Source: Oleispira antarctica RB-8 (lineage in GTDB: Bacteria > Pseudomonadota > Gammaproteobacteria > Pseudomonadales > Oceanobacteraceae). From it: a DNA stretch of 64,000 nucleotides. How positions within the stretch are numbered: the first letter of the stretch is position 1; every line of letters starts with the position of its first letter. Shown here piece after piece: positions 11,736-49,999 of the stretch. The position numbers and the translations under genes are program-made. The stretch covers positions 2,751,350-2,815,349 of the forward strand of contig FO203512.1 in assembly GCA_000967895.1 (NCBI GenBank), read 5' to 3'. The notes below the pieces were generated by a model that did no database searches, was not told where the DNA came from, and worked only from the letters and a program-made list of their open reading frames with translations.

Positions 11736-11738
11736 TTT

Positions 11739-24366: not shown

Positions 24367-25089
24367 TCAGATTTTTAATAATTTACTGAGCGCTAGAAAA
24401 GGATTGTTAATTTCCTGAGTATCTCCATTAGGCAACACAGACAAGGGGTTCTCATACTCTTGATACAATTCTCTCATCTTTCCAACATCATTCTCTGTCA
24501 ATAAACCGTGCTGAATCGCCAGCGTTGAAATCTCCAGTGAGCTTAACCAGATTGTTCTATGTTCATTGGTCGGTGTTAACAGATAGCTGACCAAATCAGA
24601 GTATTTGCAGTAATCATAGTCACTGGCAGAACTAGTAAGACCATAGACATGAGACATATCTACACAAATGGCTAAACCACCTAATTGATTATATTTTTGG
24701 CCTGCAATAGCTATAGACTTATTAAGTTGAGCCCAACCCGAAGCGTTACTTCCTAATCTTTTTTTAAAGTCTTTTTTTAGCTTTAGCTCACAGAAAATAA
24801 GCGAATCTACTGAAGGCTGAGCAATAAAGTCTATCTCTCGAAAATCAAAGCCCGCGTAATGTCCTGAGTACTTTAAAATCCTATCTTCCATTTCAGTGGT
24901 CAGAAGTGAAAGTAAACATTGCATCACTCGCTCCCATTTTAGTAATGCTTTGTTATAATCCCTTGAAAAGTGGTCTACGCCACACTTTTTACGAGATGCG
25001 ATATTCATTGCCCTGTGCCTTCTATTATTTGAAATATATTCAGGGCTTCTGGGACTGATTAACTCGATCATTGAATATTGTTTGATCAT
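24367..25089 (-). CDS. unknown protein with PD-(D/E)XK nuclease-like motif
   Basis: 240 residues, family not recognised. Residues 81-105 read FDFREIDFIAQ...FCELKLK, giving D87 and, on the next strand, E101-x-K103. This is the spacing and strand pattern of PD-(D/E)XK nucleases, and GWAQLNKSIAIA after it would be the following helix. The upstream glutamate helix (WERVMQCLL) also fits. It is the last gene read from the sigma/STAND module 1 direction, but a 151-bp gap separates it from the membrane protein gene. A DNA-cleaving effector is a reasonable guess. Confidence 0.5.
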   Translation of the reverse strand: MIKQYSMIELISPRSPEYISNNRRHRAMNIASRKKCGVDHFSRDYNKALLKWERVMQCLLSLLTTEMEDRILKYSGHYAGFDFREIDFIAQPSVDSLIFCELKLKKDFKKRLGSNASGWAQLNKSIAIAGQKYNQLGGLAICVDMSHVYGLTSSASDYDYCKYSDLVSYLLTPTNEHRTIWLSSLEISTLAIQHGLLTENDVGKMRELYQEYENPLSVLPNGDTQEINNPFLALSKLLKI

Positions 25090-25240
25090 AATTGGTTACC
25101 TATCAAAGAATTAAGCGTTCAATTAGACAAACGTCATGTAGCAGATGAAATTAACAAATGAGGAGTAAATATTTTTATAGCGAGGTATGCTTAATGAATA
25201 CTAGAAGTACATGCGAGATTATATTCGAATTATCAGAAAG

Positions 25241-25780
25241 TTATTTAACGTCCTTCTCAAGTTCAAAAATTTTGGCACTGTTCTTGTCTATTGCCTCTCG
25301 GAGGTCCTTTAACTCTTTATCATGCAGATCTTTAATACCAAGCAGTTCGTATTTAGAATAAAAGCCACTATCGACCTTATCTCGATATTTTTTTAAAATA
25401 CCCTCTTCGCGCAATAAATAAGCATCTTCGACCCTCCTATACATATCTATAGCTTCAAGATTAATTTCATAAGTAAGCTTAGGATCCTTGATGACCAAAA
25501 CTTTTTTAGACCCTGATGATATCATTCGGTAATAATTAATCAGAAGATCAGATTTCGACGTAGTAAGCTTAAACTTTAACTTATAAAACATAGGCAGTGC
25601 ACGGTACACTAGCGCTAAAGAAAGGTTCCGTATAATTTTAATCAAGTTAAAAACTATATTTATAATTTTCATTAATATCGGCTGTATTCTCATCAATATA
25701 GATAAGAGAAGCATCATAAAAATAAATATATAAGCTATCAATTCCCCAATTACTTTACTCATTCTCATTTTTAATTCCAT
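25241..25780 (-). CDS. small membrane protein after the STAND ATPase
   Basis: 179 residues, no family recognised. Residues ~10-60 are strongly hydrophobic (one long or two short membrane spans: ELIAYIFIFMMLLLSILM and a second stretch IINIVFNLI). The rest is charged and helical, with a probable coiled coil near the C-terminus. Its start overlaps the stop of the nSTAND1 gene by 10 bp, so it is translated as part of that operon. The STAND protein before it ends in a membrane helix, so the two may form one membrane complex. Confidence 0.6.
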   Translation of the reverse strand: MELKMRMSKVIGELIAYIFIFMMLLLSILMRIQPILMKIINIVFNLIKIIRNLSLALVYRALPMFYKLKFKLTTSKSDLLINYYRMISSGSKKVLVIKDPKLTYEINLEAIDMYRRVEDAYLLREEGILKKYRDKVDSGFYSKYELLGIKDLHDKELKDLREAIDKNSAKIFELEKDVK

Positions 25781-28044
25781 AAATAGACCAATAACATACT
25801 GATTAAAATAGCCCCTATAGGTTTAATATATCGCTCAACAAGTGACTTAGTTAAGTACCTTCTTAAAAGAGGATTAATGCTGGAAAATCTAAGCCCCTTA
25901 TTAATAAGGGATATATTATTAAGAAGTGATTCATCAGCACATACATCGCGACGAGAATTCCCAAGGACGTCGCTCCTGATTACATTGGCTATTACAGCTT
26001 TGTAAGAGGTTTGATCAATAACATTGATTGATGATTCTTTAGCATTAACAATTTTTCTATCTATATAAACCTGCCATTTTTTCTGACAATCTTCATTTTC
26101 AAGTTTGATCCATAATTTAAGAGAAACATACATCCAATAATAGTGATTTCCTTCAGTACCCTTATCTGCGCTATTGCCTTCATAAGTATTTATTGCTATT
26201 TGCCAACTATAAAAATCCTGGTCAATCTGATTCCGCCAGAGCAAGTAATCACTGGATTGCTCAATCCATTCTTTTAACTCAGGCCATTTATTCAATAGTC
26301 TGTCATGCACAAACTTCACAGCAGGCTCATGCTCAGAGTTTTCTATGTAAATAAGTAAGTTTGAATCAATAAAATTTTTAATGATTTTTCGCAATGGCGG
26401 CCGAACTAGTTCGATGACAGTTATTGGTACAGATTTAATAAAAGGTCCAGATCCTTGTGTCTGCCCTACAAACAGCTCGTAGAACTCAGAAACTAACCCT
26501 TCATCAGCACCATTAGACTTTAATAACTCATTCGCACGGCAAGCTACAGCCCCAAGTAGCCCTCCTAATTGTTCATAATCAGAAAATACCAAGAGGCTCA
26601 TATTCGAACCTCGTTGAATCGCTTTCTGGTAAAGCTGCTCTAATAAAAATCCCAGCATCGACAGTGAGTCTTGAGTGTGAATAGCTTCTGACAGAATTAA
26701 GTCATCAAGGCTCGCATCACCAGATTTTATTTCAAACGAGAGTCCTGAAAATATAGCTTGCTGTTGAATGATCGCCTTCCAGTTTTCTGCAGACAAGCGT
26801 GACGTTACAGAGCTGATCTCTGGCTCGAGTAAAGCTTCACAGTCTAAAAACCTACCAAGACTCTCACTTTTTATGGCCAGTAAAATATCTAAAGAAGTAA
26901 ACGCCTCCACTATTGCTTGTATCGTTTTAAACTCAACAATAATTTTTTTACTAGCCTGCGCCGAGGATGCGAGCATTTCTTCAAGTTGATCAATTACAAG
27001 AAAACAAGGCTGAGTATCTTCTTTAACAACATTCATTAAAAAATCCACCCCACCTGTTATGGATGCTACCAGCTGACGGTGAAGATCATCTACTGCAATA
27101 TTTTTTGATTTTAGATGCCAGGCTAAATTTAGCTGCTCTAATACATAATGTAAAACCCCACCCGACTTCGAGATTGCTGAGAACGTTTCACTTGACCAAT
27201 AATAATCAGGATTCTCGGACTCTAAGCGGGGTATTAAACCTGCATTTATGATTGATGTTTTGCCGGAGCCACTGGTACCGGTAAGAATTAATACGCCACT
27301 AGTTGATTTCAAGTCCCGATACAATCGATCAACATCGTCATCACGGCCAAAAAAACGAACGCTGTCTTCATAATTGAAGCTTTTAAGCCCCCTAAAAGGC
27401 TCCCAGCGGCCTAACGGGTCGCCGTCATAGTCATCAACAAGTAGTGTGCCTAACAAAGACTGTAGCCGAATAACAGGGACTAAAATTCCGCCCAACTCAG
27501 CGACTTCAGCTCGTTGTACGTCGCTGATATCGCCGGTATTTTGTTCGGGGTAACAAAGATAAAACTGAGGAATCCCTGGTTTATGTGTACTTACAAATTC
27601 ACAGGTTGAGCGAATCTTATCGCTAAGGTGACTGATCGGCTTAACTTGGCCTGATGTGAGTACTTCCCCAGTAGCAAAAACAGGATGCTCAAAGCACCCT
27701 GGCTTTTTAATAACAAGACGCCACCATGAGTCAAAGACCGCCAAAGCATATCCTAAACCACTGCTGCTGCTCCCTTGGGTGAAGTTAAACTCCTCATTCT
27801 GCATAGAAACGAGATTGACACTGGCACGGTAGCGATGGCGTTGATCTAAACCATTAAGAGAAACATACGCCGCAATAGCAGCCACCTCTAAATACCCCTC
27901 TTGCTCACTAAAGGCTTCAGAGGTTAGTTGTTGTTTGAGCTTAAGGTTCAGCAACCCCTTGGCCACCGAATCGCCCTGCTTGCTTTCTTGCGGCCGAACA
28001 TCAGCTTTTAAAATGGTTTTTGTGCTGGTTAGGATGTAGATCAT
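25771..28044 (-). CDS. Lon-like protease / nSTAND1 ATPase, membrane-anchored (module 1)
   Basis: 757 residues. The N-terminal ~200 residues resemble the Lon (S16) proteolytic fold: GSSSSGLGYA (candidate nucleophile S94, at the place of the Ser in Lon's PSAG), ATGEVLTSGQV (the GE-G-V strand pair) and HLSDKIRS (candidate K143), a Ser-Lys spacing close to Lon. Next is the nSTAND1 signature PFRGLKSFNYEDSVRFFGR, Walker A GTSGSGKT (256-263) and Walker B FLVIDQLEEM. The final ~20 residues are a membrane helix. It has a paralogue at 41463. It is probably a sensor ATPase that switches a protease. Catalysis is inferred. Confidence 0.8.
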   Translation of the reverse strand: MIYILTSTKTILKADVRPQESKQGDSVAKGLLNLKLKQQLTSEAFSEQEGYLEVAAIAAYVSLNGLDQRHRYRASVNLVSMQNEEFNFTQGSSSSGLGYALAVFDSWWRLVIKKPGCFEHPVFATGEVLTSGQVKPISHLSDKIRSTCEFVSTHKPGIPQFYLCYPEQNTGDISDVQRAEVAELGGILVPVIRLQSLLGTLLVDDYDGDPLGRWEPFRGLKSFNYEDSVRFFGRDDDVDRLYRDLKSTSGVLILTGTSGSGKTSIINAGLIPRLESENPDYYWSSETFSAISKSGGVLHYVLEQLNLAWHLKSKNIAVDDLHRQLVASITGGVDFLMNVVKEDTQPCFLVIDQLEEMLASSAQASKKIIVEFKTIQAIVEAFTSLDILLAIKSESLGRFLDCEALLEPEISSVTSRLSAENWKAIIQQQAIFSGLSFEIKSGDASLDDLILSEAIHTQDSLSMLGFLLEQLYQKAIQRGSNMSLLVFSDYEQLGGLLGAVACRANELLKSNGADEGLVSEFYELFVGQTQGSGPFIKSVPITVIELVRPPLRKIIKNFIDSNLLIYIENSEHEPAVKFVHDRLLNKWPELKEWIEQSSDYLLWRNQIDQDFYSWQIAINTYEGNSADKGTEGNHYYWMYVSLKLWIKLENEDCQKKWQVYIDRKIVNAKESSINVIDQTSYKAVIANVIRSDVLGNSRRDVCADESLLNNISLINKGLRFSSINPLLRRYLTKSLVERYIKPIGAILISMLLVYLWN

Positions 28045-28063
28045 TTAGTCATCCTGTTTTGGG

Positions 28064-28651
28064 CTATCCTTTAATAACAACATCAATGCTTAAGTTACCT
28101 TTTACTGCCTTAGACTTATTGGCTTCAACTAATACACCACTGCCTTCTGCCGCTCCACCTGCTTCATCAATATAAAGATTTGCCTCTAGTAAAGGTTCGC
28201 CATTGTTCGATATGACAACCTCGACGGATTTACCCATATAGGCGGATAGAGTTTTTTCCATAATTCCTTTATCTGAGTTATTCGGAGAGAGATAAATATC
28301 AACCTCATTTTCTGAACCAATAACCCGACGCACATCTAAAATAAAACCAGCACCACCAAAACTCATGGGTTGAGAGAACCAATCTCCTAATGATTGACCT
28401 GCAGCCGCTAATAATTCTGTGGACCCAAAGCTATCAACTATTTTCGTCTGTGATCTAGGTTTAAAAGCAACAATATTACTAGGTGTCTGTTCAGAAGCCC
28501 CCTTGGCCCTCTTTAATAGCATGTCCAGCTCTGAGCTAAGACCTTCAGGCATTCCATTATCCATTTCTGATCTAACGTCAGCCATTATTTTTGACAACGT
28601 CTCTTCAGCATGAATAGCTAGAATTTCCTTTGTTATATCCTTTTTAGTCAT
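28064..28651 (-). CDS. ~197-aa module protein, possible anti-sigma or protease substrate (module 1)
   Basis: 195 residues, family not recognised. The first ~55 are helical and charged. A linker (NIVAFKPRSQ) leads to a conserved C-terminal domain with DWFSQPM, GAGFILDVRR, GKSVEVVISNN and YIDEAGGAAEGSG. The paralogue at 46305 shares all these blocks. There is no membrane segment and no zinc-binding anti-sigma motif. Its ATG overlaps the stop of the sigma-factor gene by 4 bp (ATGA), and the Lon/STAND gene starts 19 bp after it. From position alone it could hold the sigma factor inactive until cleaved. Confidence 0.6.
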   Translation of the reverse strand: MTKKDITKEILAIHAEETLSKIMADVRSEMDNGMPEGLSSELDMLLKRAKGASEQTPSNIVAFKPRSQTKIVDSFGSTELLAAAGQSLGDWFSQPMSFGGAGFILDVRRVIGSENEVDIYLSPNNSDKGIMEKTLSAYMGKSVEVVISNNGEPLLEANLYIDEAGGAAEGSGVLVEANKSKAVKGNLSIDVVIKG

Positions 28652-29334
28652 AGAATAATCCCTGAGCTCTCTAATTGCTCCTGTAAATACTGTATTTGGT
28701 CGTGCGGGTTTGAAACCTTAATACCATGAGGCTGGGTGCACATGGTAACTTTATCAATGAAGCGCTTTAACTCTTGAGTAGGATTACTCGACTGATACCC
28801 TAAATGACCTGCCAAAGCTTTCATCGGCATGTCATAACTAGCAAACTCCCAAAACGCTGCATAGAAGAAACGTTTTCGCTCTACACTTTGTATGTCTAGA
28901 GACACTGATTCGAAACAGTTTTTAATCCACTGATAAGCCTCCTTGGCAATCAAGTGCTGCTCTGGTGTCTCAAATGCATGTATAGCGGTTTCTGAGTCAC
29001 ACACATCCTCTATAGATGAATTAACGATATTTTGATAACGACCGCCAGAGGCCTCGACCTCTGACTTCGTTAACCTTCGGTTAATCCCTTGAAGCTTTAG
29101 TTGGTCCATATAGCAAGACCACACTGTTTTAATAACGTAACTGTTAATGATTCTTTCATTTTCTGCATCGCTTATGTCGTATTCATCAAAGAAATTACGT
29201 TTTAAGAGTTTTAAGAACACTTCTTGCGCAACATCCTCTCTAAACTCTTTATGCTCAGGCGCTTTAACTTTCCAAGCCGTAATTTTTTTAATTAGGCTTA
29301 AGTACACGCCTAATTCATTATTGCCAGCGACCAT
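28648..29334 (-). CDS. ECF-like sigma factor (module 1)
   Basis: 228 residues from ATG 29334, which has AGGGA in front and aligns with the paralogue's start. An ATG at 29388 is less likely. Region 2 is seen in REDVAQEVFLKLLKRNFF and SYVIKTVWSCYMDQLKL, which fit the -10-binding helices. Region 4 is the C-terminal MKALAGHLGYQSSNPTQELKRF, a helix-turn-helix that would read the -35. There is a ~60-residue linker between them. It is the first gene of the module and is coupled to the next gene by ATGA. It would redirect RNA polymerase, probably including to its own promoter. Confidence 0.78.
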   Translation of the reverse strand: MVAGNNELGVYLSLIKKITAWKVKAPEHKEFREDVAQEVFLKLLKRNFFDEYDISDAENERIINSYVIKTVWSCYMDQLKLQGINRRLTKSEVEASGGRYQNIVNSSIEDVCDSETAIHAFETPEQHLIAKEAYQWIKNCFESVSLDIQSVERKRFFYAAFWEFASYDMPMKALAGHLGYQSSNPTQELKRFIDKVTMCTQPHGIKVSNPHDQIQYLQEQLESSGIIL

Positions 29335-29395: not shown

Positions 29396-29459
29396 TAAAC
29401 GCAGCGATATCATGAAAGTTAACAAAGTTATGGTTTTTAAATTAATACAGATTGTTAAT
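29396..29459 (-). promoter_or_regulatory. candidate autoregulated promoter of module 1
   Basis: On the minus strand: ATTAACAA (29459-29452), then TTGTTAAC (29425-29418), 16 bp, CGTTTA (29401-29396). The same elements, order and near-identical spacing occur before module 2 at 48116-48057, and both CGTTTA boxes lie 61 bp before the first start codon. The two words form an inverted repeat. TTGTTAAY-N15/16-CGTTTA could be the -35/-10 of the module's own sigma factor. Confidence 0.5.
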
Positions 29460-29909
29460 GCTCTTAAAATTATTTGACATGCAGGTATCATGCTCATCGC
29501 ACACATAAGTGTAACTCTGACTCATGGCAAACTAAGCCCTTAAGACTAGACAAAACCCTCACTATACATAGGCAATACTATCTTAATCATGAGTATTGCT
29601 GCAACTTTCTATGAACACTGATTTTGACAGCAGAATTCTATCTGCTCAGCCACCATTTACTGACCAAAAGAGATATTTAGACTTGTGAATTAAGGCAGTG
29701 AAAACAGTAATTAGCGACATTATTTAGATATTTAGTCGCGTCCTGGCTTTAAGCAACCTCGCAGTAACTATTTTCAACCTCACTTGTTAATTCCTTTGCT
29801 CCCAATGCGTTTTGTCATTTGAACAATGAATATGGGTTAAAGGTTACTCAACACGGTCACCTCGAACCCTCAATCACTAAATAGAAACTAGACAATTAAG
29901 GGGTGGTAT
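29460..29909. other. gene-free stretch between divergent operons
   Basis: 450 bp between the module 1 promoter element and the dual-OB gene. No frame with a ribosome site is visible. It must hold the promoter of the plus-strand trio, but I cannot single out a convincing -35/-10 pair; a TTGACA at about 29474 lacks a good -10. Confidence 0.5.
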
Positions 29910-30548
29910 ATGTTCCATAGAGGACTAAACACAGGAAGCAGCGTAGATATCGTAGTACTTGCAAAATCATTTAAGCATGGAGAACACTGCATTGCAGGAA
30001 AGTGCCTAATTACCAAAGAGTGGATCAGACCTGTATCTGATATCAATGGAGGGGCGATTTCTTCTGATCAAGCCAAGATACAAAATAAGTACGGAATATT
30101 TCCTACTAAACCACTCCAGAAAATACAAATAAAAATCAATCAGCATACACCGCTGATAAACCAACCTGAGAATCATTTAATTCAAAAAGAGCAGTGGATA
30201 CAGAAGTATAGTGTAAAGAACCATGAACTGATAAATTACCTTGATATACCAGATAGCCTATGGGGTAGAGGAAATCACGTTTCCTATGCAAGCATACAGA
30301 ATGGTACACAAAAAATAGACCAATCACTGTATTTGGTGCAGGTTAAAAACCTCAATTTAATAATAAATGAAGATGGCAAAAAAAGAGCAATTTTTGACTA
30401 TAACAATGAACAATATAATTTACCCGTTACAGACCCACAATTTAATAAAATATTGGAACAGCGCCCTGAGCTAGCATCAATACTGTGCATAAGTTTAGCC
30501 TGTGAGTTCCATAATAAGTGCTACAAAGTTGTCGCTACAATTTTCTAA
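29910..30548 (+). CDS. dual-OB-domain protein (DuOB-like)
   Basis: 212 residues, beta-rich. The opening SVDIVVLAKSFKHGEHCIAG and the following KEWIRPVSD match the conserved start of dual-OB proteins that occur beside DUF488 and nucleoside- or base-processing genes. A second beta-barrel is suggested by LYLVQVKNLNLII near residue 145. No catalytic motif is obvious, so nucleic-acid binding is the likely role. GGGGTGG precedes the ATG. The DUF488 gene follows 18 bp later, and all three genes of this unit are on the same strand. Confidence 0.6.
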   Translation: MFHRGLNTGSSVDIVVLAKSFKHGEHCIAGKCLITKEWIRPVSDINGGAISSDQAKIQNKYGIFPTKPLQKIQIKINQHTPLINQPENHLIQKEQWIQKYSVKNHELINYLDIPDSLWGRGNHVSYASIQNGTQKIDQSLYLVQVKNLNLIINEDGKKRAIFDYNNEQYNLPVTDPQFNKILEQRPELASILCISLACEFHNKCYKVVATIF

Positions 30549-30566
30549 ATATGGATAATTATTAAT

Positions 30567-31007
30567 ATGAAAACGTATACAATTGGATTTACACAGAAAA
30601 GCGCTAAAACATTTTTTGAGCATATAATTGATGCCGATATTAAAACAGTAATTGATGTGAGATTAAACAACGTATCTCAGCTATCTGGATTCGCTAAAAA
30701 AAACGACCTTAAATATTTCTTAGAAACATTATGCGATGCTGACTATTTACATATACCCGATTTCGCGCCGACTAAAGAGATGCTAAACGCGTACAAGAAA
30801 AAGGAGATTACCTGGCATTCTTACGAAGATAAGTTTATAAACTTAATCTCTCGTCGAAACGTTGAACGTATAATAAAGCCTGAACTCATTGAAAATAGTT
30901 GTTTTTTGTGCAGCGAGCATGAACCTCACTTCTGTCATCGCCGATTACTAGTAAACTATCTCAACGAACAGCTAAATTTGAACTTGGATATTAGGCACTT
31001 ATTTTAA
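30567..31007 (+). CDS. DUF488 family protein
   Basis: 146 residues covering the whole DUF488 domain: the opening YTIGFTQKSA, VIDVRLNN with SGFAKKNDL, a central HIPDFAPTKEML, WHSYEDKF and the C-terminal FLCSEHEPHFCHRR, whose cysteines and histidines could bind a metal. The biochemical function of DUF488 is not established. It is repeatedly found in conflict and base-modification neighbourhoods, which is family-level knowledge. It is sandwiched between the dual-OB and DUF4326 genes with almost no gaps. Confidence 0.85.
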   Translation: MKTYTIGFTQKSAKTFFEHIIDADIKTVIDVRLNNVSQLSGFAKKNDLKYFLETLCDADYLHIPDFAPTKEMLNAYKKKEITWHSYEDKFINLISRRNVERIIKPELIENSCFLCSEHEPHFCHRRLLVNYLNEQLNLNLDIRHLF

Positions 31008-31008
31008 T

Positions 31009-31620
31009 ATGAAAAATATATACATATATTATCCTAAAGAGTTTAATTCACAGACTAAATTCGATCGAAAAATTTCGAGGATTATTGGCAGCACGTCCAA
31101 CATCTCAATTTTTTATCCAAATGATCACAACAATCTGATTGATAATTTCTTTAATAAACATTTTCCGTCTATTCCATTGGTTGAGTGCGGCCCACTACCA
31201 CCCGTACCAGACAATATGACTCATGCAATAGTGTTCGATGATGGCGAGTGTTTTTCTGACCAAGTGAGAGATATTAATGACCATGCCATTCCCCTCAGAG
31301 TGATTAAAATCGATATTACACGTGTAATTAACATAAAGCGTGATGCTGATATTCTCAACAACATAGCCTCCTCTAAGTATGAATACATTGGCAGAGGATC
31401 ATATTGGGGAAATCCTCACAGCATGTTTGAAGAAGGTGATGAACGAGACGAGGTGATCAGAAAATATAAGTATGATTTTGATTATGAAAAATTCATAAAA
31501 ATCGACAAATCAGAAGTTTACAAGCTTGCTGGAAAAAGACTTGGTTGCTTTTGCAGCCCAGCTTCATGCCATGGTGATATATTAGCAAATCACCTCAACA
31601 GCTGGGACGATGGCAAGTAA
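31009..31620 (+). CDS. DUF4326-containing protein
   Basis: 203 residues, starting 1 bp after the DUF488 stop. The C-terminal ~80 residues match DUF4326: SYWGNPHSMF, a RDEVIRKYK helix, then LAGKRLGCFCSPASCHGD, with conserved Cys and His that look metal-binding. The N-terminal ~110 residues have an alternating strand/helix pattern (ISIFYP, HAIVFDDGE, PLRVIKID) like a Rossmannoid nucleotide-binding fold, but no family is clear. With its neighbours it forms a compact three-gene unit that may process or sense a nucleotide. Confidence 0.7.
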   Translation: MKNIYIYYPKEFNSQTKFDRKISRIIGSTSNISIFYPNDHNNLIDNFFNKHFPSIPLVECGPLPPVPDNMTHAIVFDDGECFSDQVRDINDHAIPLRVIKIDITRVINIKRDADILNNIASSKYEYIGRGSYWGNPHSMFEEGDERDEVIRKYKYDFDYEKFIKIDKSEVYKLAGKRLGCFCSPASCHGDILANHLNSWDDGK

Positions 31621-31660: not shown

Positions 31661-31879
31661 TTGAGCGCTTAAAACCGAGTGGTAATAAATAACAACCGGT
31701 TTCGGCAAGCCTTGGCCTTGTAGTGCCGCCTTCAAAATTCTAACCATATAAAACCCGCTTAAATTGCCCTCCCTAATGCTTTACCCCTACCTACGATCAA
31801 AATATATTTCCAACAACTTGTTAATTTCAATCAGTTTGATGCGTTTAGATAATTAACAGTCTATGAAATATAACGATAG

Positions 31880-32185: not shown

Positions 32186-32437
32186 ATGTCTATATTTTTA
32201 GAAAAATTAAAGAACCTTAAAGGCAAAAGTAAGGCGCAATTTGATCAGTTCATTCTTGAGAACGCTAAAAAATCTGTATTGAAAGAGCTTCAAGATAATG
32301 ATGTTTCACCAGATGATATCACCCCAGAAGAAATGGATGAGTTGCTTGCTGAGGAAATTAAAACCCAGCGTGAATTCGCCAAAGGGCTTGCCACGGGGTC
32401 TATTGGCTTTGCAGTGCTTTTGGAGTTACTAGGGTAA
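32186..32437 (+). CDS. small hypothetical protein, first gene of the Zorya-like operon
   Basis: 83 residues, no family recognised. It is highly charged and helical (ENAKKSVLKELQDN, ITPEEMDELLAEE), with a short hydrophobic C-terminal stretch (GSIGFAVLLELLG). Its stop overlaps the next start as TAATG, so it belongs to the operon leading to the MotA/MotB-like pair. It may be a partner or regulator of the membrane proteins. Confidence 0.5.
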   Translation: MSIFLEKLKNLKGKSKAQFDQFILENAKKSVLKELQDNDVSPDDITPEEMDELLAEEIKTQREFAKGLATGSIGFAVLLELLG

Positions 32438-32775
32438 TGCTTCGTTTACTTAGCCCCCTACTTCTTTGGGCATTTTTAAAAGCCAACAGAAAATCCTTAA
32501 AGCGCTTGTTCATTGTCGCTTTTTCTTACGTTCTTATGTTAGTGATATACGCTGACTTTGAAACCGTATTTTTTGACGGTGAGGTTCTCGTATTTAAATT
32601 AATAAAGTGGTTAATGATAATGGTTGCTATAACCCACATCTGCATTGTGCTTAAAGCATTTAAATCACGGCCCCAGTCAAAACAAGTTAATCATAAGAAT
32701 ATTGCACCTGTTTTATTAACAAGATCTCAGAAAATCATCAATAAATATAAAGATGACGCTAATAATGGAACTTGA
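32437..32775 (+). CDS. small membrane protein in the Zorya-like operon
   Basis: 112 residues with three hydrophobic stretches (LLSPLLLWAFL, LFIVAFSYVLMLVIYA and LIKWLMIMVAITHICIVL), so probably three membrane helices, then a short basic cytoplasmic tail. No family recognised. It overlaps the genes on both sides (1 bp before, 23 bp after), which implies co-translation with the ion-channel-like genes downstream. Confidence 0.55.
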   Translation: MLRLLSPLLLWAFLKANRKSLKRLFIVAFSYVLMLVIYADFETVFFDGEVLVFKLIKWLMIMVAITHICIVLKAFKSRPQSKQVNHKNIAPVLLTRSQKIINKYKDDANNGT

Positions 32776-33337
32776 AATACTCAAACATAAACAGCAAAGC
32801 ACAAAGCAGCTTGTTGACCACGTACTCAAGCATTGCAAAAAAATCGAAGGGGCGATTCTACAAAATGATATTTCAACCCAAATAGAGGAGAAGCTGGTCA
32901 GTATTGGTATTGCTTCATTATTTATGTGGCTAGTCGGGCTGCTTTTATCATTAACAGGATTTGGCATTCCATTGTTTTTAATAGGTCTGGTTTTATCAAA
33001 GGTGATTAATTCAAAAGTGTATGGCAAGGCTCGCTCTGAAGACAGCTTAAAGGACGAAGAGAATAAACTGATTCAGCTAATGCATTCTTACACGAAACAA
33101 CTTAAGGGTTTGAAAATGAAGGTCGGATTGGCATCTAAAAGAAATCAAGTTCTTTTCTCAGAGTACCCTCAGCGTAAGGTCGAACTAGAGAACTTAGCCC
33201 AAGAGATCAAGAATCTGGATATTAAGCACTTGAGCATTAAATACCGTACTGTTTATTCAAAACTCGTCAACTCACAAAACTCATTATTTATGCATCTTGA
33301 TCATGCTTACAAAATAAAAAGACAGGAATCCTTATGA
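32753..33337 (+). CDS. coiled-coil membrane protein in the Zorya-like operon
   Basis: 194 residues. A charged N-terminal helix of about 50 residues is followed by a membrane hairpin (LVSIGIASLFMWLVGLLLSL, then a glycine turn and IPLFLIGLVLSKV) and a long C-terminal coiled coil. An ATG at 32765 is an equally possible start; neither has a strong ribosome site. The stop overlaps the MotA-like start as ATGA. It is not recognised as a known Zorya component. Confidence 0.55.
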   Translation: MTLIMELEILKHKQQSTKQLVDHVLKHCKKIEGAILQNDISTQIEEKLVSIGIASLFMWLVGLLLSLTGFGIPLFLIGLVLSKVINSKVYGKARSEDSLKDEENKLIQLMHSYTKQLKGLKMKVGLASKRNQVLFSEYPQRKVELENLAQEIKNLDIKHLSIKYRTVYSKLVNSQNSLFMHLDHAYKIKRQESL

Positions 33338-34167
33338 TTACCAACATTAGTATACTCTTCATCAGCATCATTGCTTTATTGTTCCTAGCAAGCTTAGTGA
33401 GAAACCAAAACTACCGTAATGAGTGTGTAAGTATTGGTATTTTGGGCACTTTCGTGGGTATCACTTTTAGCTTGTATCATTTTGATGCATCCAATATTTC
33501 AGGCTCAATCCCTACCTTTATTGATGGTCTTAAAATGGCTTTCATTACCTCTGCAGTAGGCATTTCTGCTTCTATTATTTTATCACTTAGAAAGCCTGAT
33601 TCAGAAGTAAGTAGCCTAGATAAGTTAATTGTGCTTCAAGAAGCTAATAATCACATACTAAAAACGTCACTTGCTAACCTTGCCGAGAGTTCCAGTGAGG
33701 AAATTATAAAAGCGTTAAAAGAAGTGGTTGGTGATTTTAATAGCAACATTGAAAATCAATTTGGTGACAACTTTAAAGCTCTAAACGAAGCGTTTAATAA
33801 GCTCGTAATTTGGCAAGAAGAGTACACTTCAATGATTGAAAATCAGCAAGAGGCCACCAAAAAGCAACACGAATTAACGATGCAACGCTTGGCCGATTTT
33901 GAGGCGATTGAGAATAGAAAACTGGATTCTCTGAACAAACAGGGAGAGTCATTTATTCGATTACTGAACAGCCACGCCGTCGAGTTAAAAGGTCAAACAG
34001 AAGATATTCATTCCATTACTTCAACCTTTCAAGGGCACTCTAGTGAGATTGCTGCCAGCCTAAGTTCAAGCGTAAGTAACGTGAATAAACATATCAAAGA
34101 CTCAGTAAAACTCGCAGAAGATAATATTACTACACTGATCGGTGTCGCTAACGGGAAGTTAAGATAA
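33334..34167 (+). CDS. MotA/TolQ/ExbB-type channel protein (ZorA-like)
   Basis: 277 residues. Membrane helices at ~2-20, ~30-50 and ~65-86 contain GILGTFVGITFSLYHFD and GLKMAFITSAVGISASI, the signature of the MotA/ExbB proton-channel fold as found in ZorA. The remaining ~190 residues are a helical, glutamine-rich cytoplasmic tail, shorter than in described ZorA proteins. AGGA lies six bases before the ATG. The next gene encodes the MotB-like partner, overlapping as TAATG. In Zorya, ZorA and ZorB form an ion-driven motor that activates a cytoplasmic effector. Whether this one does so is inferred. Confidence 0.72.
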   Translation: MITNISILFISIIALLFLASLVRNQNYRNECVSIGILGTFVGITFSLYHFDASNISGSIPTFIDGLKMAFITSAVGISASIILSLRKPDSEVSSLDKLIVLQEANNHILKTSLANLAESSSEEIIKALKEVVGDFNSNIENQFGDNFKALNEAFNKLVIWQEEYTSMIENQQEATKKQHELTMQRLADFEAIENRKLDSLNKQGESFIRLLNSHAVELKGQTEDIHSITSTFQGHSSEIAASLSSSVSNVNKHIKDSVKLAEDNITTLIGVANGKLR

Positions 34168-34704
34168 TGAACAAAAGTGCCTCTATGGGCTTGGCCGACA
34201 TGATGTCTGCATTGATGATGGTTTTTATGTTTATCTCAATTGCTTTTTTGGCTCAACTTGAACAAAGCCACATGACCTTCACGAAAACCATAAATACGGC
34301 ACTTCACGCTGAGTTTGATCATGATTTGGCGCGCTGGAAAGCACAAATAACCGATGACAATGTGGTGCGCTTCCACGCCCCTTTTTTATTAGGTAGTACC
34401 AAAATACCTAATGATTTTAAGGATGTGTTAAAAGAATTTTGTCCACGCTACATTAGACTCCTTGTACAAGATGAATTTATTGACGGTATTCAAGAAGTCA
34501 AAGTTGAAGGACACACATCTAAAGGTTGGAATAAGCACACGAGTTGGGAAAATAGTTTTATTAACAATATTGAATTATCACAGCAAAGGGCCATCAATGT
34601 ATTATCATTTTGTTATCTATTAGAAGATCCAAAGATTTTTCTTAATCGCGAATGGTTAGAGAAATACTTTCATGCAAATGGCTTAGCGTCGAGGTATGAT
34701 CATT

Positions 34705-36045
34705 TCTGGTGTATCGGGTAAATAAGTAGCAGCGTATCCTGTTGATTGATCTTGGCGGATCAACAACCAAAAGGAGTACACTGCATGAATGATAATAATA
34801 TTTCTCAGCTACATAAACCAGAGCCAACTGACTTATTACAACAAGTTTTAAAGCAAGGCGCGCAGCAGTTGTTAGCCCAAGCGATTGAAACCGAAGTTCA
34901 ACAGCTTTTAGCCGATCATAAAGGGTTATTAACAGAAGATGGAAAGACTGGCCTGGTGCGCAATGGCTACCTTCCTGAGCGAACTATACAAACAGGCTTA
35001 GGAGATATTGATATCAAAGTTCCTAAGGTGCGTGACCGTACTGATAATGGCATAAAATTCAACAGCTCACTTGTACCGCCTTATCTAAAACGCAGCCAAA
35101 GTATTGAAGAGTTTTTACCGTGGCTTTATTTGCGCGGCATTTCAACGGGTGATTTTAGTGAGTCGCTAAAGCACCTATTGGGAGAGGAAGCGAAAGGCCT
35201 TTCGGCTGCTACAATCAGCCGGTTGAAAACAAGCTGGGAGGCTGATTTCACCCAGTGGCAGAAAAGAGATCTAAGTAAAAAGCGTTATGTTTATGTTTGG
35301 GCTGACGGCGTTTATTGCAATGTAAGAATGGATGATAAAGTCTGCTTGCTGGTGATCATTGGCTCGGACGAGCTGGGAAATAAAGAGCTCATCGCCGTGA
35401 GTGATGGCTATCGAGAGTCAGAGGCAAGCTGGTCTGAAGTATTACTCGGCCTAAAGCAAAGAGGCTTAAGCATCGAGCCTAAAGTTGCTGTCGGAGACGG
35501 GGCCTTAGGCTTTTGGAAAGCGCTTTCTAAGTGCTGGCCAACGACACAAGGGCAGCGTTGCTGGGTTCATAAGACAGCGAATGTGCTCGCTAAGTTTCCT
35601 AAAGCGATGCAACCAAAAGTAAAAAGCGCACTGCATGAAATTTGGCAATCTGAAACAAAAGAAGAAGCCAATAAAAGCATGACAAATTGCGTTAAATTAT
35701 TTGAAGCTAAGTACCCGAAAGCGATGAGGTGTCTTGAAAAAGATCGAGAAGCCTTGTTGGTATTTTATGATTTTCCTGCTGAGCATTGGGGCCATTTACG
35801 TACATCTAATCCGATAGAATCTGTTTTTGCGACGGTGCGGTTAAGAACAACAAAAAGTAAAAATTGTGGCAGTCGAGTAACGACGTTAGCGATGGTATTG
35901 AAGTTAATGGAAACGGCTCAGAAACGGTGGCACAGATTACGAGGTTATAATTTATTAGCGGATGTGATTACGGGTGTGAAATTTCGTGATGGCATCAAAC
36001 AAGAACAACAGGATCAGGATGCTGCTTGATATTCTGTACACCAGA
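34705..36045 (+). mobile_element. IS256-family element inserted in the ZorB-like gene
   Basis: The left end TCTGGTGTATCGGG (34705) and the inverted right end TCTGGTGTACAGA (36045 inwards) share TCTGGTGTA, with a further match AGCAGC..ATCCTG about 20 bases in. The flanks AGGTATGATCAT and AGATTTGACTAT agree at only 8 of 12 positions, so no clean target duplication is visible. It is a different subgroup from the element at 22447. Confidence 0.75.
34785..36029 (+). CDS. IS256-family transposase
   Basis: 414 residues from the ATG at 34785, chosen for the AAGGAG nine bases upstream. An earlier in-frame ATG at 34746 lacks one. DDE-type features are visible: WADGVYCNV (first Asp), VGDGALGFW (second Asp) and TSNPIESVFA (Glu), with the C/H pair of the helical insert in QRCWVHK. 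It is intact, so the element may be active. Confidence 0.92.
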   Translation: MNDNNISQLHKPEPTDLLQQVLKQGAQQLLAQAIETEVQQLLADHKGLLTEDGKTGLVRNGYLPERTIQTGLGDIDIKVPKVRDRTDNGIKFNSSLVPPYLKRSQSIEEFLPWLYLRGISTGDFSESLKHLLGEEAKGLSAATISRLKTSWEADFTQWQKRDLSKKRYVYVWADGVYCNVRMDDKVCLLVIIGSDELGNKELIAVSDGYRESEASWSEVLLGLKQRGLSIEPKVAVGDGALGFWKALSKCWPTTQGQRCWVHKTANVLAKFPKAMQPKVKSALHEIWQSETKEEANKSMTNCVKLFEAKYPKAMRCLEKDREALLVFYDFPAEHWGHLRTSNPIESVFATVRLRTTKSKNCGSRVTTLAMVLKLMETAQKRWHRLRGYNLLADVITGVKFRDGIKQEQQDQDAA

Positions 36046-41462: not shown

Positions 41463-44400
41463 TTAATTAATTGATCTATATTTTTTTTGATAGTAGCCCA
41501 ATTTTGTTAACCACTCTTTAGCTTGAGCACTAATACTAGCATTTCCACCTCTTTCAGCAATTCTAAATAAATCGATAGCTTTATCAACATCAACTGAAGT
41601 CCCTCTTCCTTGCATAGTCAGTAACCCTAGTGAAAATCCAGAGCTGGAACTACCAGCAAGAATGGCTTTTTCGTAATACTCAACGGCTTTCACATAATTA
41701 TTGGGTATACCCATCCCAGAAGAATACATATTACCTAATGCTGCGTATGCCAAATTCACATACGTAGATTTTGAATTAGCTGCCTTTTCAAGCCAATACA
41801 TTGCTTCATCGGAATCTTGTTCTATCCCTAACCCCTCAAAATATGCATTCCCAAGATAAAAGTAAGCATCCTCATTGCCTAACTGTGCTGCTAAATTAAA
41901 CCAGTAGGTTGATTTTAAAATGCTCTGCTCTCTTCCTATTCCGTTCTCATACATATAAGCGATTTCAACTGCAGAATCAGGATTGCCTTGTTTTGCAGAT
42001 TTAAGAAAATACAGGTATGCCATATCAATATTTTTTTCACCAAACCATCCATACAGATAACTGCTACCAACCATATATTGGGCCCGGGGAAATCCTAATT
42101 GTGCTGATTTTTCAGTCCAGAAGAAAGAAACATTATTGTCTTTTTCAACCCCGATTCCGAAATTATATAAGTGCCCTAAATTAAACATAGCTTTAGGATT
42201 GGACTGAAGAGCAGATTTTTTGTACCACTCAATGGCCTTGCTTGCATCTTTCGTAACTACATTACCATTTAAATAGTAATTCCCCACGTCTTTCTGTGCT
42301 TCAGAATCACCAGCTTCAGCCCTATTGAGTATATCTCCGAAAACTGGATCCGGCTCCTTACCTAGCAAAATATTTTTTGAAACATTATCAGTAGTACTGG
42401 AGTAAACCGTGCTTTCACCTGAGATATAACCTGATCTAACGACTTTAATCTTATACATTCCAAATTGAATATCTTTTATTAAAGGGGTATTACCTACATA
42501 AACATCATCTATAAATACTAAAGAGTCGGCTGAATTTGAAGTTATCTTTAGGGGAAATGAATTAATGGGCTTCAACTCTGAAAACGTATTAGAGTTTACT
42601 TCATGAAATGGAAATACCATATCACCTTTGTCATCATAATAATTTTCAGACTCTATAAAACTTTTACCGTGAGCATACACAGTCACTTTTTTGGAATAAC
42701 CCATAAGAGTAGACATTACCGGACTGTCATTAAGATCAAGATAAGTAGCTTCTGTATTCCTACCAAGATTGTCATACTTATTTGTGAATCTATAAGCCCC
42801 ATCTGCGGCAATAGACTCACCACTGGCATCTCTGTATGCCTCCTCTATTATATTACCTTTGAAATCATACTTAAAAGATAAAGATGCAACTTCAGTACGC
42901 GTGACAGTGGCAATTGCTGTACTCAGTCCATTAACATCATAAAAACTTTCATTAACAATATTTCCATTCTCATCATACTTAAAGGATTTACTATGAAAAC
43001 CTCTTACATTAGTCACAGGTAAACCATCTACACCATACATTTTAATCTGAGTGTTATTTCTAAACTGGTCATAAGTGTAGGCATATCTAGAAACACCTTT
43101 GTGATCTGACATATACCCCCCCTCAAGCACGTGGCAGATTTTTTTTATAATATTATTTTTATTATCATACTCAAACAATAATTTTTCACAGCCAAATTCA
43201 TCAACAACAACCTGGGCATTAATTCCATAAAAAGAAGTACTTAAAATATTCCCTCTATCATCTAAATTCACAATAGATTTTGCATGAGTGTTATTAAACA
43301 GAATAGGTTTTAAGTTTAATCCAAAGTAAGACTCTACTATAGGACGCCCCTTATCATCATAAAGTTTTTCAACTACAGCAACACCAAACTTCGATCCTAT
43401 TAAAATACCATCTTCATTATAGGTAGATATCTTTTTTACACTTCCATATGCATCTATCTCCATTGTCGTTCTTGCAATGTCTTCGCCAGAAGGATGTAAT
43501 ATATCGGTTCTATTCCCCCAATTATCACTTATATATAATGAGCTTAGAGTACTGCCTGGATATATAGCTCTTTCTACTTCCAGTACTCCTTTGTCATCAT
43601 AAACATATTCTATAACTGCTGACCTGCTATTATGATATTTACCGCCTATGGAATTAATATTATATTTTGAAGATACTCTACCGTTTTCATAATACGTATA
43701 TCCGAAACCATAAGTTTCGTTATTATTTGAAGTGTTAACTCCATAAGGATTTTGAAAAACCCTTTTAGTAAGAAAACCTGAGCTATCATAAGTAAGATAA
43801 TTTCTTGATATATCTGAATTAGTTGAAAGATATCTTTCAGCAACACCTTTACTAAAAGACATTACTCTTAGATTATTACTAATCTGATTTAACTTTACTT
43901 TACCAAACCTCTGGTTAAATGAAGCGATGGCAGTATCACCATCAAATTCGTAGTTAGTGACTTTCATTACACTTCCCACGTTACTGAAAGATTTCAATGA
44001 CAGTAATTTCTTTTTATCAGTATATTTATACTTCCATGAGGCTTCATTCTCTCTTGCTAGGTCAGCTGTTGGCGCCCCGAATCCATTTTGATGGGTTAGC
44101 TTTATTAAAGCTCCACCTTGATAATCTAGGCGGTAACTGAAAACTCTATGCCTGACCTCGTTTTCTGATAATTCGTCAATACCAAAAGGAATACTCCACT
44201 TCTCACCTATAGATGAATAGTAATAACTCTTAACTCTTGAGTCATCAAATAGGTATAAGCTAACAATTAGAAGAGGGAGAAATATTACTGAAATATAACT
44301 AGCTAATATTTTCCGTGATCGTCTAAGCGAAAGGTTTACATATTCTGCAATAGAACTTTCGTTAATTGACTTTATTTTTTTATAAGAATGTCCTTCTTTT

Positions 44401-46298
44401 AATAAGCGCTTATCGGTAATTAAATACTTCCCACTACCGGCTTTGTCTTTATCCTTTTTCCATTGTGTATATTGGCCATCAATACTATACCGCCAAGTTA
44501 AATAATCGGTGTAAGTGCCTACCCATTGTTTCAAGGTATCCCAATATTCAAACAAGCTATCATGAGCTAGCTTAGCTACGGGTTCATTAGCGCTATTTCT
44601 ATAACTGACAATGATATTGGCATTGATAAAGTCTTGGATAAGTCCGTAAAGCTCAGGATCATTCACCTCGACCTCGGATAGGAAAACTTGCTTGCCGAAG
44701 GGTAGATGATCACTATTTAAGCCAACAAAGTGTGAAAATAGTGAATTAGCCTGTTCAGAGAAATTACTTTTACTGAGCACTTCTGAAGCCCTATAGGCGA
44801 TCGCACCAGACAAGCCTCCTAATGTTTCATAATCGCTAAAGGACAGTATCTTTTGGCCATTACTCTTATCTATCGCATTTAAATGCAGTTGCTCAAGAAG
44901 AAACTCAACCATTGGAAGTGCAAAAGGGGTCTGTAATGCTTCTTCAATTATAATGCTATCGAGTGTTTGTTCTTTATCATCTCTCTCGAATTCTATCCCC
45001 GAAAAGGCTGCCTGTTCATGGACAATGTCATACCATGAGTTGCTCGATAATTGAGATGTTACATTCGATATAATTGGGGAGCGAAAAGCCTGATTGTCTA
45101 ATAATCTTCCAAGGTATTCATTCCTGAGTGCCAATACTATATCTAGGTTTTCTATCTTTTTTGAAAGCTCATCGATTAGTTTTAGATTCTGAGTGATATT
45201 TTCAATGGATTGATCAGCCTGGCTAAACACTTCTTCGTATTGATCAAAGTATAATAAGCAGCGAGGGCTTTCCTGAGTAATATGCGAGGCTAACAGTGCG
45301 ACTCCACTCTCTATAGACTGTTCAAAAGCCCTTTCAAGATCATCAAGTGAAATCCCTTTAGATGCCAGGGACCATGCAATAATAAATTGTCTTAGTACAA
45401 AATCAAGAACACCTGAACTCGATATATCACTGGGTGTGGTATAGGCCCAATGAAGGTTTTGATTATACTTCTCGAGCTTCGGAATTAACCCCGCCTTAAT
45501 TAGTGATGATTTTCCTGCCCCACTTGGTCCAGATACAATCAATAACCCACTATTTTGCTGTAAATCATCGTATAGACGGTCGGTATCCTTAACTCGACCG
45601 AAGAATCTAACGCTGTCTTCGTAATTAAAACTTTTTAACCCCTTAAAAGGCTGCCATCGCCCAAGCGGATCTCCATTGTAGGCATCACCTAATAAGCTAC
45701 CCAACACTTCTTGTAAACGAGCTACGGGGTAAAGAACGCCACCAAGCATCTGAATTCTTGTGCGGTCCTCGGCAGAAATCTCGCTGTGATTGCTACTAGG
45801 GTAACAAAAGCAGAAACGATCGATAGAGCTTCGATTATTTTCTACATAACGACAAAGAGAGTCGATCTTCTTATTGAGATGGCCAATCGAGCTCACCTGT
45901 CCCGATGGAAGTATCTCTCCGGTAGCGAATACTGGATTATTGAAGGAGTCTGTTTTATGCAGTACTGTCTCCCACCAAGCCTGAAACAGTGCAAGTGCAT
46001 AGCCTAGGCCACTACTACTGCTACCTTGAACAAAGTTAAAACTGTCTCCGTTAACGGGGTTTAGATTAATGCTCGCCCTATAACGATGACGCTGATCCAG
46101 TTTATTGAATGATACATAAGCAGCAGTTGCCGCCGTTGAGAGGTAGCCTTGCTGCTCCTCAAATGAAATTGAAGTAAGTTGCTGCTTAAGTTGAAGGCTT
46201 AATAACCCTTTTGCGGCTGAATCACCCAAATGACTTTCTTGAGGGCGAGCACTGACTTCTAAAATCGTTTCCGTACTGGTCAGAATATAAATAGTCAT
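41463..46298 (-). CDS. Lon-like protease / nSTAND1 ATPase with envelope-facing repeat tail (module 2)
   Basis: 1611 residues, paralogous to the 25771 gene over the first ~640. The Lon-like domain has GSSSSGLGYA (candidate S95), ATGEILPSGQV and GHLNKKID (candidate K144). nSTAND1 follows with PFKGLKSFNYEDSVRFFGR, Walker A GPSGAGKS (257-264) and LLYFDQYEEVF. A membrane helix at ~663-683 is followed by ~550 residues of YD-like repeats (YDDKGR, KYDENGNI, KYDFKGNI, KYDNLGRN), a PEGA domain (SLVFIDDVYVGNTPL, ~1275-1320) and about seven Sel1 repeats to the C-terminus. It looks like an envelope sensor tied to a cytoplasmic protease. The roles are inferred. Confidence 0.82.
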   Translation of the reverse strand: MTIYILTSTETILEVSARPQESHLGDSAAKGLLSLQLKQQLTSISFEEQQGYLSTAATAAYVSFNKLDQRHRYRASINLNPVNGDSFNFVQGSSSSGLGYALALFQAWWETVLHKTDSFNNPVFATGEILPSGQVSSIGHLNKKIDSLCRYVENNRSSIDRFCFCYPSSNHSEISAEDRTRIQMLGGVLYPVARLQEVLGSLLGDAYNGDPLGRWQPFKGLKSFNYEDSVRFFGRVKDTDRLYDDLQQNSGLLIVSGPSGAGKSSLIKAGLIPKLEKYNQNLHWAYTTPSDISSSGVLDFVLRQFIIAWSLASKGISLDDLERAFEQSIESGVALLASHITQESPRCLLYFDQYEEVFSQADQSIENITQNLKLIDELSKKIENLDIVLALRNEYLGRLLDNQAFRSPIISNVTSQLSSNSWYDIVHEQAAFSGIEFERDDKEQTLDSIIIEEALQTPFALPMVEFLLEQLHLNAIDKSNGQKILSFSDYETLGGLSGAIAYRASEVLSKSNFSEQANSLFSHFVGLNSDHLPFGKQVFLSEVEVNDPELYGLIQDFINANIIVSYRNSANEPVAKLAHDSLFEYWDTLKQWVGTYTDYLTWRYSIDGQYTQWKKDKDKAGSGKYLITDKRLLKEGHSYKKIKSINESSIAEYVNLSLRRSRKILASYISVIFLPLLIVSLYLFDDSRVKSYYYSSIGEKWSIPFGIDELSENEVRHRVFSYRLDYQGGALIKLTHQNGFGAPTADLARENEASWKYKYTDKKKLLSLKSFSNVGSVMKVTNYEFDGDTAIASFNQRFGKVKLNQISNNLRVMSFSKGVAERYLSTNSDISRNYLTYDSSGFLTKRVFQNPYGVNTSNNNETYGFGYTYYENGRVSSKYNINSIGGKYHNSRSAVIEYVYDDKGVLEVERAIYPGSTLSSLYISDNWGNRTDILHPSGEDIARTTMEIDAYGSVKKISTYNEDGILIGSKFGVAVVEKLYDDKGRPIVESYFGLNLKPILFNNTHAKSIVNLDDRGNILSTSFYGINAQVVVDEFGCEKLLFEYDNKNNIIKKICHVLEGGYMSDHKGVSRYAYTYDQFRNNTQIKMYGVDGLPVTNVRGFHSKSFKYDENGNIVNESFYDVNGLSTAIATVTRTEVASLSFKYDFKGNIIEEAYRDASGESIAADGAYRFTNKYDNLGRNTEATYLDLNDSPVMSTLMGYSKKVTVYAHGKSFIESENYYDDKGDMVFPFHEVNSNTFSELKPINSFPLKITSNSADSLVFIDDVYVGNTPLIKDIQFGMYKIKVVRSGYISGESTVYSSTTDNVSKNILLGKEPDPVFGDILNRAEAGDSEAQKDVGNYYLNGNVVTKDASKAIEWYKKSALQSNPKAMFNLGHLYNFGIGVEKDNNVSFFWTEKSAQLGFPRAQYMVGSSYLYGWFGEKNIDMAYLYFLKSAKQGNPDSAVEIAYMYENGIGREQSILKSTYWFNLAAQLGNEDAYFYLGNAYFEGLGIEQDSDEAMYWLEKAANSKSTYVNLAYAALGNMYSSGMGIPNNYVKAVEYYEKAILAGSSSSGFSLGLLTMQGRGTSVDVDKAIDLFRIAERGGNASISAQAKEWLTKLGYYQKKYRSIN

Positions 46299-47731: not shown

Positions 47732-47995
47732 TTAATGATTTACAACCTCTTTTATCTCCCGAATAACCTCTCCTCTTTGCCAAATCACATCTCCATTTGT
47801 CCTGAACTTCATAGCCTTATAAGAAGTGCTTCCATAACTGCTTTTAAGCCAAACAATCTCGCCTAATACGGGGTTAGGACAGGCTCTATTCATTTTTGAA
47901 AGCCAGCCTTCTAGATCCCCTGTTTTATTTAACGGTTTCGCCACCCAGTTAGTACGGGGTTCATAAGTTGTTGCGATGCTATTTTCAAATGCCAT
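47732..47995 (-). CDS. small hypothetical protein heading module 2
   Basis: 87 residues, no family recognised; beta-rich, with several Trp (NWVAKPL, EIVWLKSS, DVIWQRGEV) and one Cys. AGGAG eight bases before the ATG is a strong ribosome site. It is 61 bp downstream of the module's promoter-like element, as the sigma gene is in module 1, so it was probably inserted into or lost from the unit. No equivalent exists in module 1. Confidence 0.55.
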   Translation of the reverse strand: MAFENSIATTYEPRTNWVAKPLNKTGDLEGWLSKMNRACPNPVLGEIVWLKSSYGSTSYKAMKFRTNGDVIWQRGEVIREIKEVVNH

Positions 47996-48056: not shown

Positions 48057-48116
48057 TAAACGGTGTTATTCATCAGAATTAACAAAATGGGGAATATATT
48101 TTAACTAATTGTTAAT
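48057..48116 (-). promoter_or_regulatory. candidate autoregulated promoter of module 2
   Basis: Minus strand: ATTAACAA (48116-48109), TTGTTAAT (48085-48078), 15 bp, CGTTTA (48062-48057). It matches the module 1 element at 29459-29396 in words, order and distance to the first ATG (61 bp), although the surrounding sequence has diverged. Confidence 0.5.

Positions 48117-49922: not shown

Positions 49923-49999
<77 letters not shown>

Follow-up and report, generated by a model that had tools for sequence, protein, structure and literature searches.

We analysed a 64,000-nucleotide stretch of DNA from Oleispira antarctica RB-8 (contig FO203512.1, positions 2,751,350 to 2,815,349), hereafter the window. 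The window is a defence island in which PDC-M45 candidates, ZorA/ZorB-like genes and a DRT UG17 reverse transcriptase lie amid transposases. A three-gene module, encoding a sigma factor, a middle protein of about 197 amino acids (aa) and a protein that joins a Lon-type domain to an nSTAND1 ATPase (gene 3), was found twice, at 29334-25771 and 47584-41463. A first-pass annotation, made from the sequence by itself, had described these two modules with the same gene order, an ATGA overlap and a short gap, and checking of the open reading frames (ORFs) confirmed them. Module 1 comprises the sigma gene at 29334-28648 (ATG start), the middle gene at 28651-28064 and gene 3 at 28044-25771 (757 aa). The corresponding genes of module 2 lie at 47584-46901, 46904-46305 and 46298-41463 (1611 aa). 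The features of the two operons are as follows.

28648..29334, - strand: ECF-type sigma factor of module 1, 228 aa (TIGR02937, E 1.3e-6 over most of the model)
28064..28651, - strand: middle protein of module 1, 195 aa, putative anti-sigma factor and Lon substrate, proposed from gene position
27400..28044, - strand: Lon-type (S16) domain of module 1, residues 1-215, Ser94/Lys143 (Foldseek, VIA, profile comparison)
26200..27399, - strand: nSTAND1 ATPase of module 1, residues 216-615 (PF20703, E 1.4e-53; Walker A at 256, Walker B at 347)
25771..26199, - strand: C-terminal part of gene 3, module 1; terminal hydrophobic segment, possible membrane anchor
25241..25780, - strand: small membrane protein, 179 aa, overlapping gene 3 of module 1 by 10 bp
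47732..47995, - strand: 87-aa protein, first gene of the module 2 operon
46901..47584, - strand: ECF-type sigma factor of module 2 (TIGR02937, E 6.4e-7)
46305..46904, - strand: middle protein of module 2, 199 aa
45651..46298, - strand: Lon-type domain of module 2, 61% identical to that of copy 1, dyad kept
44442..45650, - strand: nSTAND1 ATPase of module 2 (PF20703, E 1.1e-59)
41463..44441, - strand: C-terminal part of gene 3, module 2, possible sensor (transmembrane segment at 664-682; Sel1, E 6e-52; PEGA, E 9e-8)

The sigma and middle genes of both copies are joined by a 4-base ATGA stop-start overlap, and gene 3 follows after a gap of 19 bp in module 1 and 6 bp in module 2. As the first-pass annotation had claimed, the copies have diverged strongly: identity between them is 53% for the sigma factors, 51% for the middle proteins and 50% over the common 615 aa of gene 3. 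The claim that both copies share one domain set was correct up to the end of nSTAND1 but failed for the C-terminal parts of gene 3, since copy 1 ends in a hydrophobic segment whereas copy 2 continues through a transmembrane segment into a PEGA/Sel1 region of about 900 aa.

The only further carrier of the trio that we found is one Hahellaceae metagenome-assembled genome (MAG; L003), where the same gene order, the same neighbours and the four-base sigma/middle overlap recur. The order of the trio and this overlap are kept across the three loci despite divergence of up to 50%. Ratios of nonsynonymous to synonymous substitution (dN/dS) between the two genomes were 0.08-0.24 across the sigma, middle and Lon-domain sequences; this purifying selection shows that the three genes are real. 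In the MAG, a single sigma gene and a single middle gene precede two Lon-nSTAND1 genes, and a counterpart of the 179-aa small membrane protein sits after both of these sensor genes. The Lon halves of the two sensors are 91% identical whereas their nSTAND1 halves are 44% identical, with the break near residue 240. Because the Lon halves show a synonymous divergence (dS) of 0.73 with a dN/dS of 0.06, their likeness appears to have been kept by selection and not just by recent copying; very recent gene conversion as its sole cause is unlikely on the same figures. Between the window and the MAG, the Lon domain had a dN/dS of 0.08-0.09 and the middle protein one of 0.12; the orthologous nSTAND1 reached 0.25 and the small membrane protein 0.53. 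The slow change of the Lon domain and the middle protein (dN/dS 0.06-0.12) fits a constant protease with a fixed partner and changing sensors.

The N-terminal domain of gene 3 was not detected by Pfam, and we therefore folded it alone. The AlphaFold2 model had a mean pLDDT of 62, rising to about 90 at residues 141-190. When it was compared with the PDB by Foldseek, every match with E<0.001 was a Lon protein (E. coli Lon, E 2e-6), and VIA superimposed it on E. coli Lon (1rr9) with a Z score of 14.1 and 3.6 Å over 169 residues. Profile comparison with housekeeping Lon gave an E value of 2.2e-6, for this one pair, with a probability of 89, and it aligned Ser94 with the Ser of GPSAG and Lys143 with the Lys of LKEK. 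Both residues are invariant in 5/5 proteins, one of which is just 28% identical. From the fold matches to a predicted model and the aligned invariant dyad we conclude that this domain is, with high probability, a protease of the Lon type whose dyad is intact, so that the S16 fold anticipated by the first-pass annotation was recovered.

The nSTAND1 assignment of both gene 3 copies is certain, and Walker A and Walker B motifs are present in all nSTAND1 copies. For the possible membrane anchor of module 1, the MAG orthologue of gene 3 scored positive for a transmembrane segment at residues 728-746, whereas the window copy fell below the threshold used. Family searches of gene 3 returned no SAVED or CARF match, in agreement with the earlier remark that a cyclic-nucleotide sensor domain was not seen.

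Both sigma factors match TIGR02937 (sigma70-ECF; ECF, extracytoplasmic function) below its curated cut-off, though the matches span most of the model, and the proteins are therefore called divergent ECF factors. With the model covered in this way, both the sigma2 and the sigma4 region lie within a single short protein. The broader interpretation in the first-pass annotation is thus partly supported, in that the domain identities which it assumed, the Lon fold and dyad, nSTAND1 and the ECF sigma factor, were all found.

Family searches placed the middle protein in no known family and matched it to no anti-sigma family. The model of the module 1 protein (mean pLDDT 63) has helices at residues 3-30 and 36-51, a low-confidence linker at 50-67 and a beta-rich domain at 69-194. 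A PDB fold search with this model gave a best Z score of 4.9, which is uninformative; it returned no anti-sigma fold, CalpT or Csx30 and excludes nothing. A PDB sequence search with profiles of all three proteins also yielded nothing meaningful. An overlapping gene order is typical of sigma/anti-sigma pairs. Csx30 has two domains joined by a flexible linker, and its N-terminal domain binds an ECF sigma factor (PMC10028731); the predicted layout of the middle protein is similar, in that a low-confidence linker separates its helical N-terminus from the C-terminal domain. On the basis of its gene position and overlap next to sigma and this analogy, we infer that the middle protein acts as an anti-sigma factor. 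Alternatively, it could assist the sigma factor or Lon-nSTAND1 as a co-activator, adaptor or sensor partner, with Lon serving as a regulated scaffold or cutting something else. Such a role would agree with the lack of an anti-sigma family match and of an assigned fold, and Lon-fold domains exist, for example in BrxL, that have no dyad and are not proteases (PMC12839542). However, all five proteins compared here retain the Ser/Lys dyad, and the arrangement of the genes is typical of sigma/anti-sigma pairs, so that we consider these alternative roles quite improbable.

Comparison of the regions upstream of the sigma genes of copy 1, copy 2 and the MAG revealed a shared bipartite element of ECF form, GTTAA-N16/17-CGTTT. 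A first repeat noted upstream of sigma 1, GCGACTAAATAT, was dropped, as it did not recur at other operons. The sites of the element in the window are listed below.

29397..29423, - strand: ECF-like motif GTTAACTTTCATGATATCGCTGCGTTT, sigma operon 1 (orthologous site L003:7229-7255)
48058..48083, - strand: ECF-like motif GTTAATTCTGATGAATAACACCGTTT, sigma operon 2, 63 bp before the 87-aa gene
25129..25155, - strand: ECF-like motif, 40 bp before the PD-(D/E)XK-like gene (orthologous site L003:14131-14157)
29786..29812, + strand: ECF-like motif, 98 bp before the DuOB/DUF488/mSLOG operon (orthologous site L003:6898-6924)
31820..31846, + strand: ECF-like motif, before a broken Sel1 gene and 340 bp before the ZorA/ZorB-like operon (orthologous site L003:4850-4876)
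48111..48137, + strand: ECF-like motif, 122 bp before the SSB gene

All of the sites are on the correct strand and upstream of operons, mostly 39-122 bp from the start codon. Since the motif of operon 1 ends 62 bp before the ATG at 29334 but just 9 bp ahead of the GTG at 29388, the ATG is the favoured start of sigma 1. When the window was scanned with GTTAA-N15-18-CGTTTA, four sites were found against 0.21 expected, a number reached by 0/100 shuffles, and two of the four are independent of the motif derivation. A search of the complete 4.4-Mb genome with GTTAAYT-N14/15-CGTTT returned seven sites, six of them inside 23 kb of the island, whereas a reversed control pattern had six sites genome-wide. 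Among the sites that did not enter the derivation, 4/5 fall within 0.5% of the genome, for an optimistic binomial P of 4e-9. The MAG island contains five sites, four of which are orthologous (sigma, nuclease-like gene, DuOB and Sel1-Zor). The fifth precedes a 72-aa gene whose product is 47% identical to the 87-aa protein that opens the module 2 operon, itself also behind the motif. Within the MAG island, this site stands before a cassette encoding 72-aa, 219-aa and 484-aa proteins of no clear family (L034:11484-13878, - strand), a possible further member of the regulon. This clustering of candidate promoters suggests that the switch drives defence genes and is the strongest new evidence to that effect.

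In the first-pass annotation, the freed sigma factor was to rewire transcription. The motif before both sigma operons and four other island operons adds support to this step; it also precedes the MAG sigma operon, and this sigma factor would be the one to recognise it. The tie between motif and sigma factor was drawn by sequence comparison, and the motif might be that of a different regulator (an alternative sigma factor of the host or an activator), with the modules merely members of its regulon. However, for a host regulator one would expect targets outside the island, whereas all but one of the sites are confined to it, and the placement of the motif before both sigma operons resembles ECF autoregulation. 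We therefore regard control by another regulator as very unlikely. The operons of the proposed sigma regulon, other than those of the modules, are as follows.

24367..25089, - strand: PD-(D/E)XK-like protein, 240 aa, candidate nuclease (REID...ELK by eye; UPF0102, E 0.021, below the cut-off); 75% identical in the MAG
29910..31620, + strand: DuOB (PDC-M45A), DUF488 (PDC-M45C) and mSLOG-DUF4326 (Pfam, PADLOC)
32186..34721, + strand: three small genes, ZorA-like and ZorB-like (PADLOC ZorA2, E 1.4e-38; ZorB2, E 2.8e-51)
48259..48798, + strand: SSB, single-strand DNA-binding protein (PF00436, E 8.7e-35)

The Sel1-repeat gene at 31921-32172 is a remnant with an internal deletion and a shifted frame, with the motif still in place; it is intact in the MAG (L003:4305-4778). 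The ZorA/ZorB-like pair behind the three small genes lies at 33334-34721 and is followed at 34746 by a Mutator-family transposase gene. No other Zorya component was recognised adjoining this pair by Pfam or PADLOC.

These observations lead us to propose that each module is a STAND-gated, protease-released sigma switch that turns on a defence regulon, a reading to which we assign a probability of roughly 60%. At rest, the middle protein would hold the ECF sigma factor, probably by its N-terminal helices. A trigger, infection or stress, would be sensed by the probably membrane-anchored nSTAND1 ATPase through its C-terminal region or the small membrane partner, and the activated nSTAND1 would switch on the Lon-type Ser/Lys protease fused to it. 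By cutting the middle protein, the protease would then free the sigma factor, which would transcribe its own operon together with the GTTAAYT-N14/15-CGTTT operons, namely those of the PD-(D/E)XK-like protein, DuOB/DUF488/mSLOG, the Zorya-like genes and SSB. The gene set and order, the Lon fold and dyad, nSTAND1, the identity of the sigma factor and the clustering of promoters are supported by computation; recognition of the motif by this sigma factor, inhibition by the middle protein, cleavage by Lon and the nature of the trigger are the parts of the model that we infer.

The closest parallels come from CRISPR-associated systems. CalpL cleaves CalpT, which holds CalpS (PMC11417357), and the present module resembles this tripartite system in having a fusion of an N-terminal Lon protease to a sensor, a putative inhibitor and an ECF sigma factor; the Lon domain and the sigma factor are encoded together in all three loci, and the role of inhibitor would fall to the middle protein. 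The two differ in that CalpL carries a SAVED sensor of cyclic oligoadenylate, whereas nSTAND1 follows Lon here, and CalpT is a 33-kDa protein, whereas the middle protein is smaller (195 aa) and its model has no informative PDB match. The probable membrane anchor and the island-wide promoter set are features of the present system. In the type III-E Csx29/Csx30/CASP-sigma system (DiCASP), a protease cleaves an ECF sigma inhibitor, and the sigma motif occurs in promoters of the system's own defence locus (PMC10028731). Csx29 is a CHAT protease triggered by Cas7-11 and RNA, whereas here a Lon protease is fused to a STAND ATPase, and the motif of CASP-sigma lies in its own locus whereas ours is spread over several unrelated defence operons, in both genomes. 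Our search of the DNA found no CRISPR-like array and the island ORFs scanned included no cas genes, Cas7-11 among them, so that the absence of an array reported by the first-pass annotation holds. A search of the genome for the Cas10 palm gave matches of 21-37 bits only; as the E. coli control also matched, these suggest GGDEF proteins. The nSTAND1/EACC conflict systems described by the Aravind group share the ATPase family, protease fusions and variable C-terminal regions, and include nSTAND1 loci and, separately, EACC2-caspase loci that can carry an ECF sigma gene (PMC8195603); in contrast, the protease here is of the Lon type and comes together with a sigma factor and a putative inhibitor. 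Kaur et al. 2020 (PMC7159879) mention neither Lon nor sigma in their main text, and a Lon-nSTAND1 switch was not described in the literature searched, which covered few subscription journals. By analogy, the best reading is that the module works like CalpL/CalpT/CalpS and Csx29/Csx30/CASP-sigma without their defining features (SAVED, the CHAT protease and linked CRISPR).

Relatives of the system proved rare. A large genome collection was scanned with short, strict peptide patterns only, so that distant trios may have escaped. The profile of the middle protein gave two weak matches, both Tex proteins, in 390 genomes of the order, and there were no matches to the Lon profile in 398 genomes of the phylum or to the sigma profile in 369 genomes of the class. 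Viral contigs contained no relatives of the middle protein, Lon or sigma, and the Lon domain was unmatched in phages. Among plasmids, the middle protein, the sigma factor and the WD40-type Lon domain were unmatched, and gene 3 matched generic nSTAND1 only. Three weak Lon matches elsewhere were LonB-like proteases and were set aside. The co-occurrence that the earlier annotation proposed as a check is therefore real, in one MAG, but rare, as we found no further genome with the trio.

Searching for Lon in relatives of the MAG genome identified one distant Lon-nSTAND1-WD40 protein. This 1681-aa protein (L033:4441-9486, - strand) has an intact dyad, a transmembrane segment and WD40-like repeats and is encoded beside a 632-aa protein and a 416-aa membrane protein, with no sigma or middle gene nearby. 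Lon-nSTAND1 may thus itself be the defence effector, acting against host or phage proteins in an Avs-like abortive infection, with the sigma/middle pair controlling expression only. Many plasmid nSTAND1 relatives likewise occur in proteins annotated with trypsin-like, caspase or TIR effector domains. However, the trio with its overlapping genes is kept in three loci, and the two sensors of the MAG, whose Lon domains are nearly constant, share a single sigma/middle pair. A direct effector role is in our view unlikely, and it stays open as the main rival because the lone WD40 form exists.

Several points weigh against the protease-released sigma switch. It has been found in just two genomes. The sigma factor and the middle protein are linked only by gene order and overlap, the model of the middle protein resembles nothing known, and its cleavage by Lon is a predicted step. 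As a Lon-nSTAND1-WD40 protein exists without sigma and middle genes, the protease need not target an anti-sigma factor. The motif may be one that a different regulator recognises. The binomial P is optimistic because the pattern was chosen by visual inspection and loosened between the window scan and the genome count.

Other parts of the island lie outside the proposed regulon. A seven-gene cluster at 10360-22363 (+ strand) encodes a VWA protein, a PP2C phosphatase, a protein kinase, an MkoA-like helicase (PADLOC, E 4e-81), an MkoB-like protein, a PDC-M26A-like AAA protein and a DUF2357-like protein; it is probably another defence system, and the promoter motif is absent from it. The DRT/UG17 reverse transcriptase gene at 36847-38133 (PADLOC, E 2.6e-120) is also without the motif and has upstream of it a 127-aa gene of no assigned family. 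Past the SSB end of the island, a tRNA-Val gene at 49923-49999, with ordinary metabolic genes beyond, marks a possible integration point.

STAND immune sensors are known mainly to trigger fused effectors directly. In the literature searched, protease-released sigma factors are known in antiviral defence with the CRISPR effectors CalpL and Csx29 (PMC11417357, PMC10028731). If our proposal is correct, the module joins both themes, with a STAND sensor that answers by transcription. The arrangement in the MAG, with two sensors for one sigma/inhibitor pair, suggests a modular design of constant protease and variable sensors. In its fullest form, which we regard as evenly balanced, a STAND ATPase would command the whole multi-system island as one inducible regulon, and interchangeable sensors would plug into the same sigma/inhibitor pair. 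The motif names the genes expected to rise on activation and suggests how a defence island may be co-ordinated, with a possible route from a sensed attack through a protease to the switching on of the whole island.

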